Position numbers and translations under genes: made by a program. Shown piece after piece: positions 19,673-29,333 of a stretch of DNA of 32,056 nt. Each line of letters begins with the position of its first letter. Position 1 is the first letter of the stretch. The stretch is from Clostridia bacterium. GTDB lineage: Bacteria; Bacillota; Clostridia; TANB77; RGIG9151. Location of the stretch: the NCBI GenBank assembly GCA_017934955.1, contig JAGBIO010000035.1, positions 1 through 32,056 of the forward strand, written 5' to 3'. The notes beneath the pieces were generated by a model, which saw nothing but the letters and a program-made list of their open reading frames with translations, was not told the origin of the DNA and ran no database searches.

Positions 19673-19912
19673 AAAAAAATTCCCACAATGCCGTATTATA
19701 AAGTCGTTTCCGGACCTGCATGTGCAGGTGGGTTTCTTCTTGAATATCTCACGCTTCCCATTCCGCCGAAGCGAGGGCCTGCAATTGATACCCAAAGTTC
19801 TGAATCCCATATAAATTGTGTTGGTTCGAAACAACCTTATTCTCGAACACCGCAGGAATTTTTACTGCCTTATTCTCGAACACCGCAGGAATTTTTACTG
19901 CCTTATTCTCTT
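19673..19912 (-). ncRNA. ssrS: 6S RNA (RNA polymerase regulator)
   Basis: Minus-strand transcript of about 240 nt from a consensus promoter. Its end segment CAUUGUGGGAAUUUUU pairs without interruption (16 bp, several G-U pairs) with AAAAAUUCCUGCGGUG near its start. Next to this helix are UGUUCG on the 5' side and CGGCAU on the 3' side, both present at the same places in E. coli 6S RNA (GAUGUUCG and CGGCAUC). A U-run follows the helix. 6S RNA binds the housekeeping holoenzyme in stationary phase. Here the 5' closing strand occurs twice through a 33-bp tandem repeat (19835-19910); without one unit the RNA would be about 205 nt, the usual size. Exact ends are estimates. Confidence 0.82.
19835..19910. 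repeat. 33-bp tandem duplication inside the 6S RNA gene
   Basis: Two full copies and a 10-base partial copy of a unit that runs from CCTTATTCTCGAACACCG to TTTTTACTG on the + strand, identical to the base. It doubles the 5' strand of the closing helix (19848-19863 and 19881-19896). Confidence 0.9.
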
Positions 19913-23659: not shown

Positions 23660-23668
23660 GTCAATTTT

Positions 23669-23869
23669 GCATCGGGGACGTTTCCATTTTGCAAAATCTC
23701 CTTCTTTTTTCGCATCGGGGACGTTTCCATTTTGCGAAATTTCCTTCTTTTTTTTCGCATCGGGGACGTTTCCATTTTGCGAAATTTCCTTCTTTTTTTT
23801 CGCATCGGGGACGTTTCCATTTTGCGAAATCTCCTTCTTTTTTTCGCAAAATGGAAACGTCCCCGATGC
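23669..23869. repeat. Tandem repeat, four direct units and one inverted unit
   Basis: The 24-base core GCATCGGGGACGTTTCCATT+TTGC starts at 23669, 23712, 23757 and 23802 (periods 43, 45, 45). Linkers are GAAATTTCCTTC plus T-runs. A fifth core at 23846-23869 is inverted, so the last direct unit and it can form a 24-bp hairpin. Frames through it on both strands are repetitive and lack ribosome sites, so it is treated as non-coding. Confidence 0.9.
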
Positions 23870-23950
23870 AAAATCCAAACCTACTCTTCCTTTCAAAATT
23901 TCCATATTTTTCATAACATAACTTTTCTGAAATTACACATCATAATGCCA

Positions 23951-24395
23951 TAAGGGTTTGTGATAGTCGAGCCAAGAGAGATATTAGGTAATAAAGTTGC
24001 CTTGTACCTTTCGGTCAAAGGTTTGTAGAAGATTATGAGGTTTTCTCCAAGCCGGCGAGCAGATCTTTGCAGGTTGTGAACGGTGTTATCGCGGGACATC
24101 CTCGCCATAGCATCCTAAACAATCTTCTCAGGTCGAGCTAAGACTATTATCATTGCCGCAGGCCGATTTGTTAAAGAGGGGGGCACTCCTCCCTCTTCAA
24201 CAAAGCACTTATTTATTAAGTGTTACGGTTAACGAGCTTCTATGGTAAGCATGATCATAGCGGTTCGTACAGGTAGTCTTAATAGTCGAGTAAAGGTTTG
24301 TTTAAGTGGTGGAATGTTGGGTAATCGGTTAAAGCCGATTGCCGGATGTGTAACTGCTTACTACAGGCCGTAGCGTAGATTATCACGAGCTCTTA
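23951..24395 (+). ncRNA. Large structured RNA of unknown class (~445 nt)
   Basis: The ends pair over 18 continuous base pairs: TAAGGGTTTGTGATAGTC (23951-23968) with GATTATCACGAGCTCTTA (24378-24395), including four G-U pairs that would be mismatches on the other strand. Internal helices: GGTAA/TTGCC; ACCTTT/AAAGGT; AGAAGATT (24027) with AATCTTCT (24121), enclosing GGCGAG/CTCGCC; TAAGACTATT (24139) with GGTAGTCTTA (24272); AAGAGGGGGG/CCTCCCTCTT (24174-24197); CACTTA/TAAGTG; CTATG/CATAG; GGTAATCGG/CCGATTGCC (24320-24343). Several also use G-U only on the + strand. GTCGAG occurs three times in likely junctions. It lacks the signature sequences of RNase P RNA, tmRNA and SRP RNA. No clear promoter was found; CATAAT at 23941-23946 is a weak -10. 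Confidence 0.75.
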
Positions 24396-24420: not shown

Positions 24421-24447
24421 CAAGGGGGAGACAATGTCTCCCCCTTG
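24421..24447. terminator. GC-rich hairpin between the structured RNA and the 24457 gene
   Basis: CAAGGGGGAGA and TCTCCCCCTTG, 11 bp, loop CAATG. No strong T-run on either strand, so termination is possible but not certain; it could end the minus-strand gene at 24457 and the + strand RNA. Confidence 0.6.
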
Positions 24448-24456
24448 TGAAATGAT

Positions 24457-24879
24457 TTAGCCTTGGAACCGAGAAGAACTCTCCGCTTTTCCCCTTTCTT
24501 CCTTAAGCTTTTGCGTCCTCTCCAAAAAACGCTTAAAGTAACTGCAAAGCTGTGCCCTTTCTTTGATTTCCGGAGTGGCATCACATGTCATAAAATAGCC
24601 ACCCTTAAGAGCCTCAAATATTCCTTCCATCGTACACGGAACATCATAGCTACGATGAAGATATCGAGCTTGCCATACTCCCTTATTGGTCAAATATTCC
24701 GTGCTATTCCCGTCAGACCATATTTTGATTCGCTCTTCAGCAACATCAAATTTAAAATCATGATAAACTTCTCGAATCAGCTTTTCAGCTACGACAACGC
24801 TAACCGCCAATGCTTCCCGCATTTTCACAGCCTCCGCGACTTCTTGCAACGTCAGACTCATAACCTTCAACTCGTCCAT
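24457..24879 (-). CDS. Unknown 140-residue protein
   Basis: Predicted soluble. Helical first ~50 residues (LQEVAEAVKMREALAVSVVV), a middle part with Trp and Tyr (IKIWSDGNSTEYLTNKGVWQ), and a basic, Arg/Lys-rich end (FKRFLERTQKLKEERGKAES). No family recognised. AAGGAG lies about 12 bases before the ATG. It follows the 111-residue gene by 21 bases and is probably co-transcribed from 25295-25323. Confidence 0.72.
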   Translation of the reverse strand: MDELKVMSLTLQEVAEAVKMREALAVSVVVAEKLIREVYHDFKFDVAEERIKIWSDGNSTEYLTNKGVWQARYLHRSYDVPCTMEGIFEALKGGYFMTCDATPEIKERAQLCSYFKRFLERTQKLKEERGKAESSSRFQG

Positions 24880-24900: not shown

Positions 24901-25236
24901 TCAGTCAAAATAATACACCGTTTCGTGTTTTAGGTTATAATTCCGGTAATCCTTCGCCAATTCCGGCAATTTAAGCTTTATCAAGACCGAAGTTCCGGTA
25001 TAACCCAACATCAACTCCACATACCATTCTTTTTTCCCGTTCTCATCTCCCCAATAATTTCGATTAACAAGCGATTTCAAACCACCTGTATCTCGCACCT
25101 TGTTTTTCGCAATTTTTTCAATCTCCTGCTCCGTCTTTGGACCAATCAGTACCAGCGCATGCGCAAAATCATTCTCCACGATTTCCTGCAGCTTTCCTAA
25201 AACATCTTCCGGTACACCGACAGAAACAAAATTCAT
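24901..25236 (-). CDS. Unknown 111-residue protein
   Basis: Predicted soluble alpha/beta protein: MNFVSVGVPEDVLGKLQEIV, then LVLIGPKTEQEIEKIAKNKV, a charged WGDENGKKEWYVELMLGY strand and a Tyr-rich end. A frame can be read up to 25323 but runs through the promoter; the ATG at 25236 has AAAGGAGG and is chosen. I recognise no family. It lies downstream of the large AAA+ gene on the same strand, with its own promoter in the 102-base gap. Confidence 0.75.
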   Translation of the reverse strand: MNFVSVGVPEDVLGKLQEIVENDFAHALVLIGPKTEQEIEKIAKNKVRDTGGLKSLVNRNYWGDENGKKEWYVELMLGYTGTSVLIKLKLPELAKDYRNYNLKHETVYYFD

Positions 25237-25294
25237 GCGACGTCCTCCTTTAAAATACAGTTCGGATTTGCAATATAAAGAAACAATCCTGTCC

Positions 25295-25323
25295 ATTCTA
25301 TCACAAACCCGAAATTTTAGCAA
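25295..25323 (-). promoter_or_regulatory. Promoter of the two small genes at 24457-25236
   Basis: TTGCTA, 17 bases, TAGAAT on the minus strand, about 59 bases before the ATG at 25236. Confidence 0.7.
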
Positions 25324-25338
25324 TACATTATGTTTCTG

Positions 25339-28300
25339 TTAGCCACTAATATCCTCGGCGCGAATCTCCATCAGCGTTTCTTTATCAAAAGCTACTTCCT
25401 TGCTGAGTCGCAAAGATTGATTCGAAATCGCCTTTTCAAAAAGATTTCGCACAAATCTTCCGTTTCCAAAACGAGGCCGTACTCTTGCCTCCCTTAAAAT
25501 ATCCTTCATTTTCTCCGCCGCTTCTTCTGAAAGCCGATACCCATTGTTTTGGAACATTCGTACTCCGATTTCAAACAACTCTTCCGTCGTATAATCTGCA
25601 AACTCAATCACATTCGGGAATCTTGAATGCAAGCCGGGATTCGATAACAAGAACTCCGTCATTTCCTCGGTATATCCCGCCAAAATCACAATCAACCGAT
25701 CCCGATTGTCCTCCATCAACTTTAACAACGTATCGATTGCCTCTCTTCCAAAATCAGTCGGTCCGCCTTGTGCCAAAGTATAAGCCTCATCGATAAACAA
25801 CACGCCATTTAACGCCTCTTGCACAACTTGCATTGTTTTTATCGCAGTCTGTCCTACGTATCCCGCCACCAAGCCGGCACGGTCCGTCTCGACAAAATGA
25901 TTGGTAGAAACTACCCCTAAAGAATACATCAAATCCGCAATAATTCGCGCCATTGTTGTCTTTCCCGTTCCGGGGTTTCCGGTAAATATCATATGAAGCG
26001 TCTGCGTTTCATTCACCGCAAGCCCTAACTTTTTTCGTTCCTTCTGAATCTTAATTCTCGCATGGATTGCTCGAATAAAGTCTTTCACTTCCTGCAAACC
26101 GATGATTTTATCAAACTGCGCTTCTAAATCGAATAATTCCGCTTTTTGATTCTCTTCCTCCCCGAAATCCGCTTTTATAATCCAATTCATCTCCGAAGCA
26201 TCCGTCTCTTCTAACGCCACACGGGTACTCTGGTTTCGAATGATTTCCTCCACAAAATTTCTCACCATTCTCCCGTTGCCCGAAGAAGCATCAGAATTCC
26301 GATGCAATTGTTCTATTTTTCCTTTCGCATATTCCTTCGCAGAATCCTCTAACACAAATCCTTTCTTTGCAATTTGATTCAAGAAAATTTGGTACAATTC
26401 CTCAGCAGTATAATCCGAAAATTCAACAGAAAGCGGAAATCTTGAATTCAAACCGGAATTTGCCTCTAAAAACTCGCTCATTTCCTTTTTATAACCTGCC
26501 AAAATCACACAAATTTCCCCGCGATAATCCTCAATCAACTTCACTAAGGTATCGACCGCTTCTTTCCCAAACTGGTCGTTTTGATTGGTCAACGCATACG
26601 CTTCATCAATAAACAACACGCCACCCAACGCCGAAAGAAAAACTTCCTCCGTCTTTTTCGCCGTCTGTCCTACATATTCCGCCACTAACTTCGAGCGATC
26701 TGCCTCTACCAACTGACCGCTTTTTAACATTCCCATTTCTTTCAGCATTTCTGCCACAACACGAGCAACCGTTGTTTTTCCGGTTCCCGGGTTTCCGGTA
26801 AATATCATATTCAACGACTGTGCCGCATCCGTCGTAATTCCGGCAGACTTTCTCTTCGCTTGCGCTTTTAATAAATTTTGTTGTTTTCTCAAAAAGTCTT
26901 TTACGTTATCTAATCCGATAATTCCGGTCAAATGTTCCTCTAAATCAAACTCCTCTTTTTCCTCCAATTCAAAATCCACCAGTTTTAATAACTCAAAATC
27001 ACTCTCATTTTCATTAATAATACGATTTGACTGATTTACAATCGCTTTTTCTACCACATTTCTTGCCAATCTTCCATTTCCCGAATCATTTTTCCCCTTG
27101 ATATTCTTCGTTTCAAAAAAGGAAATAAGCGGTTGAACGCAGGAAGAATCAATCACATATTCACTCTCTCTTGCGATTTTCTCCGCAATTTTATACATCT
27201 CAGTCGGCGTATAATCCGGAAATTCAATAATATTCGGAAATCTCGACATCAATCCGGTATTGCTCTTTAAGAAAGCCGTCATCTCATCTCGGTAGCCCGC
27301 CAAAATCACAACAAGCTCCTCCCGATGGTCCTCCATCATCTTAACCAACGTATCAATTGCTTCCAATCCGTAAGTATCATTCTTGTCTCGACAAAGCGCA
27401 TACGCCTCATCGATAAACAGTACACCGCCAATCGCCTGCTTAATCTTAGCCGTTGTCTTCTTTGCGGTCTCTCCGGCATACTCTCCCACCAAATCGCCTC
27501 GAGAAACTTCCACCAATTGTCCTTTTTGCAGCATTCCCGCCGCTGCCAAAAACTCTGCCACAATTCTCGCAATCGTTGTCTTTCCCGTTCCCGGATTTCC
27601 GGTAAATATCATATTCATAGAAATCGAAGAGTTTTTAAAACCCGACTCTTCCCTTAATCGTCTCGTCAGCACGGTATCTTCCAATTTCAAAATATACTCT
27701 TTCACCGAATCCAAGCCAATAACATTATTCAAACGCTTTTTAATTTCATCCGTATTGTGATTCTTTCTCTTCACCGTAAACTTATCCAAAGAAACATAAT
27801 TTCCTTCTACCACCAAAATAAACTCTTCATTAAGAACGCCTAAAACAACATCCCCTTCAATCGGTGCAGTCCGTTTTAGCTTAAATTCCGTAATCGGCTT
27901 TACAATATTTTGTTCCACATAAAAGGAAATTCCTTTCAGTCCGCTTCGCTTGCTGTAAGACTTTCGAATAAACTCAATAATATTCGGATCATATAAAAGT
28001 GCTATATTAAGAGATTCCCGCAGTTGAAATACTTTTTGATTGATAAGGTTATTAATCAGAAAATGAATGTCTTCTTCACTCAACTCAAAAATCTTTATAG
28101 CATCTGTTACCCTTTGCATAACTCTGTCCCCGAAGACTTCGGAAAACTCTGCTTCCGCTTTATCCGTCAATAGTACAATATACTTTCGTTCCGCATGAAG
28201 CGCAAGTTGTTCTGTGCCTATCGTCACATTCACAGCCCCGTTTTCCAAAACAGCATATAACGTATTTTTTACTTTCTCGCTCGTATTTTCCCAACCGGTC

Positions 28301-29229
28301 AATACCAATATTTCTGTCGAAGAATTTAATCTGTCCTGCAATAATCTTAAAAACTTCTCGTAAGAAGCCTCTTCTGCAAATTCCGCCAAATTTATTTCAC
28401 AGTCTATTCCCTGCAATAAATTTTCCGCATACAAAAGACGGGCAACATCCGAAATAACTGCCTTCACAAAATCCGGTTCTCCCGCTGAAATCGCAATCAC
28501 ATTTTTAGGACCGTTTCCGCTATTCTTTAGAATAAAAGGACGCTTAAACCCAACCAATAAATTCCCGATAAACTCCTCATGTCCCACATATTTCTCAGAA
28601 AGCTTATTTTTCACGCCGGAAAACACCAAATCCGGATCAATCGCCGGAACTTCTTCTTTTATGTTGCTTTTCGGATGAAGGGCGCTTGTAATTTGTTCCG
28701 CACGAGCCTCATCATACTTGAAAACCGTCTTAAAATATTGTATAACCTCATTTTGCTCTTCCGTTATCCCCGTACCCGCTTCCGCCACACGATACAGCAG
28801 CGAAAAAATATCATCCTCTGCCTTATTTTGCTCACTAAGCGGAGCGGTTTTATATAACGCGTCTATAAAATGCTTTAATTCTTTTATTGTATCTTTATAT
28901 TTCTTCATAAATCCGAAAAGAGACTTTTTCTCGGAAGAATATACCTTCTGCAAATCCTCAAACTGCAACCGGGTTAAAGCTACTTGGTTTTTAATAAAAT
29001 TCGTCGCATAAGTATCGTACGCCGCCTCATGTTCTTGATCCAGTCGCGCGAAAGTACCAAACAACGAAACCACATAGCAAAGCATTTCCGGAGCAACTTC
29101 CTCATTTTTATAACACTTATTTCCCCGAAGTCGAAACGTCTGCCCACATCGCGGACAGCCTAACGTAAACTCCGTTCCTGTTACAATTAAATTACTGTTA
29201 CAATACGGGCATTCCACTTGTTTTGCCAT
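25339..29229 (-). CDS. Giant AAA+ ATPase with zinc ribbon and three CbxX/CfxQ-type modules
   Basis: About 1296 residues. The N-terminus is a zinc ribbon (CPYC and CPRC, 15 residues apart). Residues ~40-190 are helical. Residues ~195-450 resemble a ClpB/ClpA-type AAA+ module that has lost Walker A but keeps FGDRVMQRVTDAIKIFELSE, a ClpB-like sensor region. Three active modules follow, each with a GLDSVK/GLDNVK/GLQEVK lead-in, MIFTGNPGTGKTT (near residues 545, 815 and 1090), GVLFIDEAYAL/TL, and the NGR-x-VRN arginine region. CbxX-type ATPases remodel proteins, as in Rubisco activase CbbX and ESX EccA. A TTG two codons upstream is less likely than the ATG at 29229. Client unknown. Confidence 0.9.
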   Translation of the reverse strand: MAKQVECPYCNSNLIVTGTEFTLGCPRCGQTFRLRGNKCYKNEEVAPEMLCYVVSLFGTFARLDQEHEAAYDTYATNFIKNQVALTRLQFEDLQKVYSSEKKSLFGFMKKYKDTIKELKHFIDALYKTAPLSEQNKAEDDIFSLLYRVAEAGTGITEEQNEVIQYFKTVFKYDEARAEQITSALHPKSNIKEEVPAIDPDLVFSGVKNKLSEKYVGHEEFIGNLLVGFKRPFILKNSGNGPKNVIAISAGEPDFVKAVISDVARLLYAENLLQGIDCEINLAEFAEEASYEKFLRLLQDRLNSSTEILVLTGWENTSEKVKNTLYAVLENGAVNVTIGTEQLALHAERKYIVLLTDKAEAEFSEVFGDRVMQRVTDAIKIFELSEEDIHFLINNLINQKVFQLRESLNIALLYDPNIIEFIRKSYSKRSGLKGISFYVEQNIVKPITEFKLKRTAPIEGDVVLGVLNEEFILVVEGNYVSLDKFTVKRKNHNTDEIKKRLNNVIGLDSVKEYILKLEDTVLTRRLREESGFKNSSISMNMIFTGNPGTGKTTIARIVAEFLAAAGMLQKGQLVEVSRGDLVGEYAGETAKKTTAKIKQAIGGVLFIDEAYALCRDKNDTYGLEAIDTLVKMMEDHREELVVILAGYRDEMTAFLKSNTGLMSRFPNIIEFPDYTPTEMYKIAEKIARESEYVIDSSCVQPLISFFETKNIKGKNDSGNGRLARNVVEKAIVNQSNRIINENESDFELLKLVDFELEEKEEFDLEEHLTGIIGLDNVKDFLRKQQNLLKAQAKRKSAGITTDAAQSLNMIFTGNPGTGKTTVARVVAEMLKEMGMLKSGQLVEADRSKLVAEYVGQTAKKTEEVFLSALGGVLFIDEAYALTNQNDQFGKEAVDTLVKLIEDYRGEICVILAGYKKEMSEFLEANSGLNSRFPLSVEFSDYTAEELYQIFLNQIAKKGFVLEDSAKEYAKGKIEQLHRNSDASSGNGRMVRNFVEEIIRNQSTRVALEETDASEMNWIIKADFGEEENQKAELFDLEAQFDKIIGLQEVKDFIRAIHARIKIQKERKKLGLAVNETQTLHMIFTGNPGTGKTTMARIIADLMYSLGVVSTNHFVETDRAGLVAGYVGQTAIKTMQVVQEALNGVLFIDEAYTLAQGGPTDFGREAIDTLLKLMEDNRDRLIVILAGYTEEMTEFLLSNPGLHSRFPNVIEFADYTTEELFEIGVRMFQNNGYRLSEEAAEKMKDILREARVRPRFGNGRFVRNLFEKAISNQSLRLSKEVAFDKETLMEIRAEDISG

Positions 29230-29333
29230 ATTCAAACCACCATTCTGTTATTTTTCGTTACAATAATTATATCATATTTTTTTTCGAATCCATACAAGTA
29301 TCTGTAAAAATTATTTTGTGATTGTTACAGGTC

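Follow-up and report, generated by a model that had tools for sequence, protein, structure and literature searches.

A Widespread RNA with Six Near-Equivalent Spokes in Spore-Forming Bacillota, Preceded by a Sigma-G-like Promoter

The question raised by this locus was what is encoded by a stretch of approximately 445 nt that lies between genes at positions 23951–24395 on the + strand of the window, by which we mean the whole 32,056-nt piece of DNA analysed here (contig JAGBIO010000035.1 of a Clostridia bacterium). The two ends of the stretch pair with each other. Positions 23951–23968 and 24378–24395 form a closing helix, P1, of 18 uninterrupted base pairs whose strands are 409 nt apart. The folding energy of the + strand was −188.6 kcal/mol, compared with −127.9 ± 5.9 kcal/mol in dinucleotide shuffles (z −10.3), whereas the − strand reached a z of only −2.95, and the assignment to the + strand is therefore right. 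Both this strand and the 18-bp end-to-end helix, which is present in homologues as well as in the window, had been proposed in the original prediction, and the bounds given there are those of the conserved RNA, exact to the base.

Homologues were identified by several routes. A BLAST search against 95 relatives returned only one sister species from the same genus, with 75% identity in the middle of the RNA and 84% at its start. The sister-species locus (L004, on the same contig as L027) is flanked by the same RecG and N-acetylmuramoyl-L-alanine amidase genes, with other genes than those of the window between them; among the loci examined, this synteny is confined to the two sister species. A covariance model of arm D (R1), built from two sequences, those of the window and the sister species, gave full-length matches in eight further genomes from the class (E 2e-7 to 6e-5), where the RNA was again without an Rfam match. 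A pattern search restricted to linker 1 and the 5′ strand of P1, with the 3′ strand of this helix left free, found 52 stretches in one-per-species genomes, ranging from Acetivibrio and Ruminiclostridium to Pelosinus, Propionispora and Lucifera (Negativicutes). The homologue set was widened with a second covariance model (R2), which covers only the 5′ third of the RNA and matched 34 of 291 class genomes, 29 of 95 order genomes and 95 of 249 phylum genomes, these samples overlapping slightly. Among 18 genomes checked, one to eight R2 matches were found per genome, some of the secondary ones falling in the second half of an RNA already matched. The MAG SKW257 had up to eight, with two copies on contig JAOAEJ010000066.1 (L023 and L055), and the MAG CTSoil_080 also had eight. 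Copies within a genome mostly differ clearly and, by their sequences, look like old paralogues. Many of the R2 matches in the window's own order reached only E near 1e-8; fast divergence of the RNA restricts its detection.

The structure was assessed in an alignment of 46 full-length RNAs, for which RNAalifold gave a consensus of 154 pairs. Pairing held in 96.7% of the pair cells across the 46 RNAs, as opposed to 33–43% when the partners were slid by 1 to 3 columns, two-sided changes occurred at 110 of the 154 pairs, and double-change cells numbered 884 versus 255 in shuffles; the consensus was derived from this same alignment, a favourable bias whose effect these margins far exceed. Essentially every homologue retains P1 unbroken, and compensatory changes in this helix are numerous. 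The loci found by pattern search, in which the 3′ strand of P1 had been left free, paired at 15 of 15 positions in nearly all cases. A model that treats this helix as unpaired added 31 loci, of which 30 paired in P1 at 15 of 15 positions and one at 14 of 15. The covariation for this RNA class is overwhelming.

The fold is a six-way hub in which P1 and five arms, A to E, form six near-equivalent spokes, and this architecture is secure. On the + strand of the window, the 18-nt 5′ strand of P1 (23951–23968), supported by both the fold and alignment covariation, leads through linker 1 (GAGCCAA, 23969–23975), almost invariant across the 46 sequences, into arm A (23976–24012), a covarying helix (helix 2). 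There follow linker 2 (GGTCAAA, 24013–24019), arm B (24020–24053; covarying helix 3), linker 3 (GGCGAGCA, 24054–24061), the two-tier arm C (24062–24134; covarying helices 4–6), linker 4 (GAGCTAA, 24135–24141), arm D (24142–24287), whose base helix covaries (helix 7), linker 5 (GAGTAAA, 24288–24294), the two-tier arm E (24295–24369; covarying helices 11–12) and linker 6 (GTAGCGTA, 24370–24377), with linkers 2 to 6 placed by the alignment of the 46 RNAs. The 3′ strand of P1 (24378–24395), also backed by covariation, completes the RNA. Throughout the class the spokes measure 15–18 bp and the linkers, similar and purine-rich, are 7, 7, 8, 7, 7 and 8 nt long; the window RNA, with P1, five arms and six linkers of exactly these lengths, fits this definition. 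Several internal helices had been drawn before any homologue was at hand. GGTAA/TTGCC is real and is the tip of arm A, as is GGTAATCGG/CCGATTGCC, the tip of arm E. The AAGAGGGGGG/CCTCCCTCTT hairpin is present as an insert in arm D, the upper part of which departs from the class consensus, but such a G-rich hairpin insert is common to the two sister species only. In place of the drawn pairing TAAGACTATT/GGTAGTCTTA, the homologues support a different, conserved register, GACTATTA/TAATAGTC (24142–24149 with 24280–24287), as the base helix of arm D.

The spokes resemble each other in detail. With pairs numbered outward from the hub within each spoke, 91% of spoke-cells have a G·U wobble at pair 12, and no other pair exceeds 24%. 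A U·G wobble occupies pair 14 in 76% of spoke-cells and pair 3 in 68%, the latter lying eleven pairs, or about one A-form turn, hubward of the former. In many genomes R2, which models the 5′ third, repeatedly matched the 3′ half of one and the same RNA as well, with E down to 8e-10. The most regular RNA seen is a divergent member (L140, 527–800, − strand) with six nearly identical spokes of ~16 bp and the linkers GAGCAAA, GAGCAAA, GGAGCGAA, GAGCCAA, GGGCAAA and GGCGCGAA, and it is probably nearest to the ancestral repeat. The simplest origin would be repeated duplication of a single spoke-plus-linker unit. Judging by short pairs beside the hub in the consensus, some linkers may pair briefly with one another across arms A, C and E, and the hub may be tighter than drawn.

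The sequences upstream of the RNA were searched for promoters. The sigma-G consensus of Bacillus subtilis consists of the elements GHATR and CATNNTA. Upstream of the homologues, a strong box, CATAATA or CATACTA in consensus, precedes the GGG of P1 by 6 to 11 nt, and a GHAT element is found 17 nt (sometimes 18) upstream of this box. Scored as GHAT-17-CATNNTA, with expected counts taken from shuffles, a sigma-G-like promoter was present at 42 of 53 loci where 1.5 were expected (shuffle maximum 7), an enrichment of ~28-fold, and at 18 of 32 loci found by another route (1.0 expected); about 20% of the first set and 44% of the second do not fit the pattern. A sigma-K pattern was found at none of the 53 loci, and a sigma-E pattern at five (1.0 expected), far under the sigma-G pattern, and both were rejected. 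In the window, the candidate −10 element CATCATA (23938–23944, +) is a perfect CATNNTA of sigma-G type, recognised by its sequence and by conservation of the box in homologues, and the candidate −35 element ACATA (23916–23920, +), recognised by its position and 17-nt spacing, has one mismatch to the GHATR type of forespore sigma factors. At the other end, P1 and a U-tract probably form the transcript end, as T follows directly 3′ of P1 in most members (95, 74, 65, 68 and 61% at positions 1–5). The DNA that separates the RNA from the convergent gene contains a strong hairpin (24421–24446), a possible shared terminator, whose role is uncertain because there is no T-run on the + strand.

We also compared the distribution of the RNA with that of sigG-type genes, which were scored by the sigma-G family TIGR02850, with a lenient cutoff in the class sample. 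This family matched 221 of 291 class genomes and 211 of 249 phylum genomes. Every RNA-bearing genome of the class sample (34/34) and 94 of 95 in the phylum sample carried a sigG-type gene, together 128 of 129, and the one genome without it is a fragmented MAG. The match in genome G318 (5e-79) may be a related sigma factor instead of sigG. The association gave Fisher values of 6e-5 (class) and 8e-8 (phylum), uncorrected for shared ancestry, owing to which it is weaker than these values indicate. The sigma factor was present and no RNA was detected in 187 class and 117 phylum genomes; because a detectable copy is missing from over half of the genomes with sigG, the RNA is accessory to sporulation and not required for it in general. 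Based on the promoter sequence and the co-occurrence with sporulation genes, control of the RNA by sigma-G in the forespore is likely. Sigma F is a possible alternative, as the promoters of the two forespore sigma factors overlap and recognition by SigF and SigG is promiscuous in Clostridioides difficile (PMC7438776).

In the account that we propose, forespore RNA polymerase with sigma-G would start the RNA ~8–10 nt past GHAT-17-CATNNTA, at the base of P1, and in most members transcription would stop at the U-tract just past P1. The transcript would fold into the hub, with P1 and arms A–E joined by the six linkers and the shared wobble signature held at a fixed distance from the centre. Six near-equivalent docking sites would then hold copies of a partner, either a protein or the same RNA, in radial order, in the forespore or the dormant spore. 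A multivalent scaffold is favoured because wobbles kept strictly at fixed helical positions suggest a recognised surface, for which such strictness, with pair identity otherwise free, is expected. The scaffold role is as probable as not, and the account as a whole, from sigma-G-driven synthesis to scaffold, has about an even chance of being correct. No partner was found; Hfq, a six-fold ring, was considered as an obligate partner and rejected, since ~12 of 95 RNA-bearing genomes are without Hfq and several of these are at least 97% complete.

Next in our order of preference, and distinctly less probable, is self-assembly, in which spokes or tetraloop tips of the same RNA would pack within the spore into a particle or lattice made of RNA alone. 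By analogy, GOLLD, ROOL and OLE homo-oligomerise in vitro (PMC12286853), and spokes that are pseudo-symmetric and fixed in length, together with the stable GNRA/UAAC tips of arms D and E, would suit such packing. However, arms A and B have loops of variable length and sequence, in which no conserved kissing interaction was apparent, and raiA RNA is a monomer (PMC12286853).

The multivalent scaffold is also preferred to a general regulator that would bind RNA polymerase or the ribosome and silence or store that machine during dormancy, a reading by analogy with 6S RNA that we consider unlikely. A trans-acting RNA made in the forespore would fit such a role. The 6S RNA of the window lies at 19676–19861 (−; 87.7 bits), 4 kb from the six-spoke RNA, and in Propionispora a 6S gene (L020:2198–2370, −) is located ~130 nt downstream of a six-spoke RNA on the same strand. 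This nearness is limited to two loci, however, and the architecture is not 6S-like: 6S RNA, also a free-standing structured RNA gene, consists of one long hairpin with bulges, measures ~190 nt and binds RNA polymerase.

It is similarly doubtful, and if anything slightly more so, that the RNA is driven by a housekeeping promoter and linked with sporulation through shared ancestry alone. The CATAAT sequence is near the sigma-A −10 element, some loci are without a sigma-G −35 element, and the association statistics carry no correction for phylogeny. Nevertheless, a sigma-A-like promoter was found at 7 of 53 loci where 5.5 were expected, which is background, whereas the sigma-G-like pattern lies far above its own background and keeps a 17-nt spacing almost throughout.

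Known RNA families were searched with 4227 Rfam models. At the gathering cutoff, none was matched by the window RNA or 17 related loci, and at E up to 10 only chance matches were returned for the window RNA and one consensus-like member. The search works, since two tRNAs and the 6S RNA were recovered by the same scan from other parts of the window. Size and end-to-end pairing would suit a divergent RNase P RNA, tmRNA, SRP, OLE, ROOL, GOLLD, raiA or group I/II intron, but with no credible match to any model such an identity is very improbable. RNase P RNA, tmRNA and SRP RNA had been discounted in the original prediction, and none of their covariance models matched, nor did ARAGORN detect a tmRNA. 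Its suggestion of a large structured RNA, perhaps of a new class, is supported by the strong covariation and the lack of an Rfam match, and we regard the RNA as almost certainly a new structured class. It had also been likened to ROOL, GOLLD and OLE, which is apt for size and ornateness, but homology and phage linkage were not found and the six-spoke layout differs. The six-fold repetition, the sigma-G-like promoter and the occurrence among spore formers were beyond what that prediction could see. ROOL and GOLLD, likewise large ornate RNAs of unknown function, are encoded by phages and prophages (PMC12286853), whereas no homologue of the window RNA was found in phage, plasmid or viral contig collections, and the ROOL and GOLLD covariance models matched neither it nor its relatives. 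OLE resembles the window RNA in being large, free and highly conserved in anaerobic Bacillota, and its cryo-EM structure was solved with two-fold symmetry (PMC12286853). Its covariance model gave no match to the window RNA or relatives, which differ in their six-spoke hub, sigma-G-like promoter and lack of a fixed neighbour gene. The raiA-motif RNA (ModT) is likewise a structured RNA of Bacillota, a monomer of ~205 nt (PMC12286853), and its disruption leads to sporulation defects according to the title of a 2024 PNAS paper cited there; the window RNA has a different architecture and no Rfam match. Bvs196 and other sporulation-specific sRNAs are likewise RNA genes, reported to be involved in spore development (PMC9147052); Bvs196 is 294 nt long and comes from Bacillus velezensis. 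No such RNA was found in PMC11109978, PMC8632094, PMC12286853 and other open-access journal literature, which included two recent genome-wide ncRNA surveys and the ornate-RNA cryo-EM paper; an earlier description is possible.

The surroundings of the RNA vary between loci. Of 40 loci where a downstream ORF was found, 29 have it in convergent orientation and 11 on the same strand, and the 20 neighbours scanned have varied and unrelated Pfam domains, with no conserved neighbour gene. From these mostly convergent ORFs and unrelated neighbours, the RNA is its own gene and acts in trans. A cis-regulatory leader or long terminator, to which the intergenic position and the same-strand minority might point, can be dismissed given the convergent majority, the unrelated neighbours and the RNA's own promoter and U-tract. 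Just upstream of the RNA in the window, 23665–23848 holds four tandem 45-bp copies of TTTTCGCATCGGGGACGTTTCCATTTTGCGAAATCTCC..., with an inverted copy at 23847–23864. Twelve copies of the 18-mer core of the repeat are spread over six contigs of the genome, and the element looks like a REP/BIME-type dispersed repeat. Two genes away from the RNA, 25339–29235 (−) encodes a protein of 1298 aa that contains three AAA domains of the SpoVK/CbbX type (TIGR02881, 854.9 bits over three stretches); in the sister species no such gene lies near the RNA. Beside the AAA protein gene are two adjoining 140-aa ORFs (24457–24879 and 24901–25323, −), both without a match in Pfam and NCBIfam.

Taken as a whole, the findings tip slightly towards a new and widespread spore-specific RNA, a six-fold spoke-plus-linker repeat whose own ends pair to close a ring of pseudo-six-fold symmetry, and which would provide the forespore with a radial scaffold. 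To our knowledge, very few large structured RNA classes exist among those described in bacteria, and we know of no described natural RNA with six-fold pseudo-symmetry in a single chain. This class is present in over a hundred of the spore-forming Bacillota sampled, a large share of the sample, yet it is uncatalogued in Rfam. The six-spoke RNA is also a natural template for RNA nanostructure design. The RNA biology of spores is poorly understood, and a scaffold RNA of the forespore would turn the way in which dormant spores organise their contents into a testable question.
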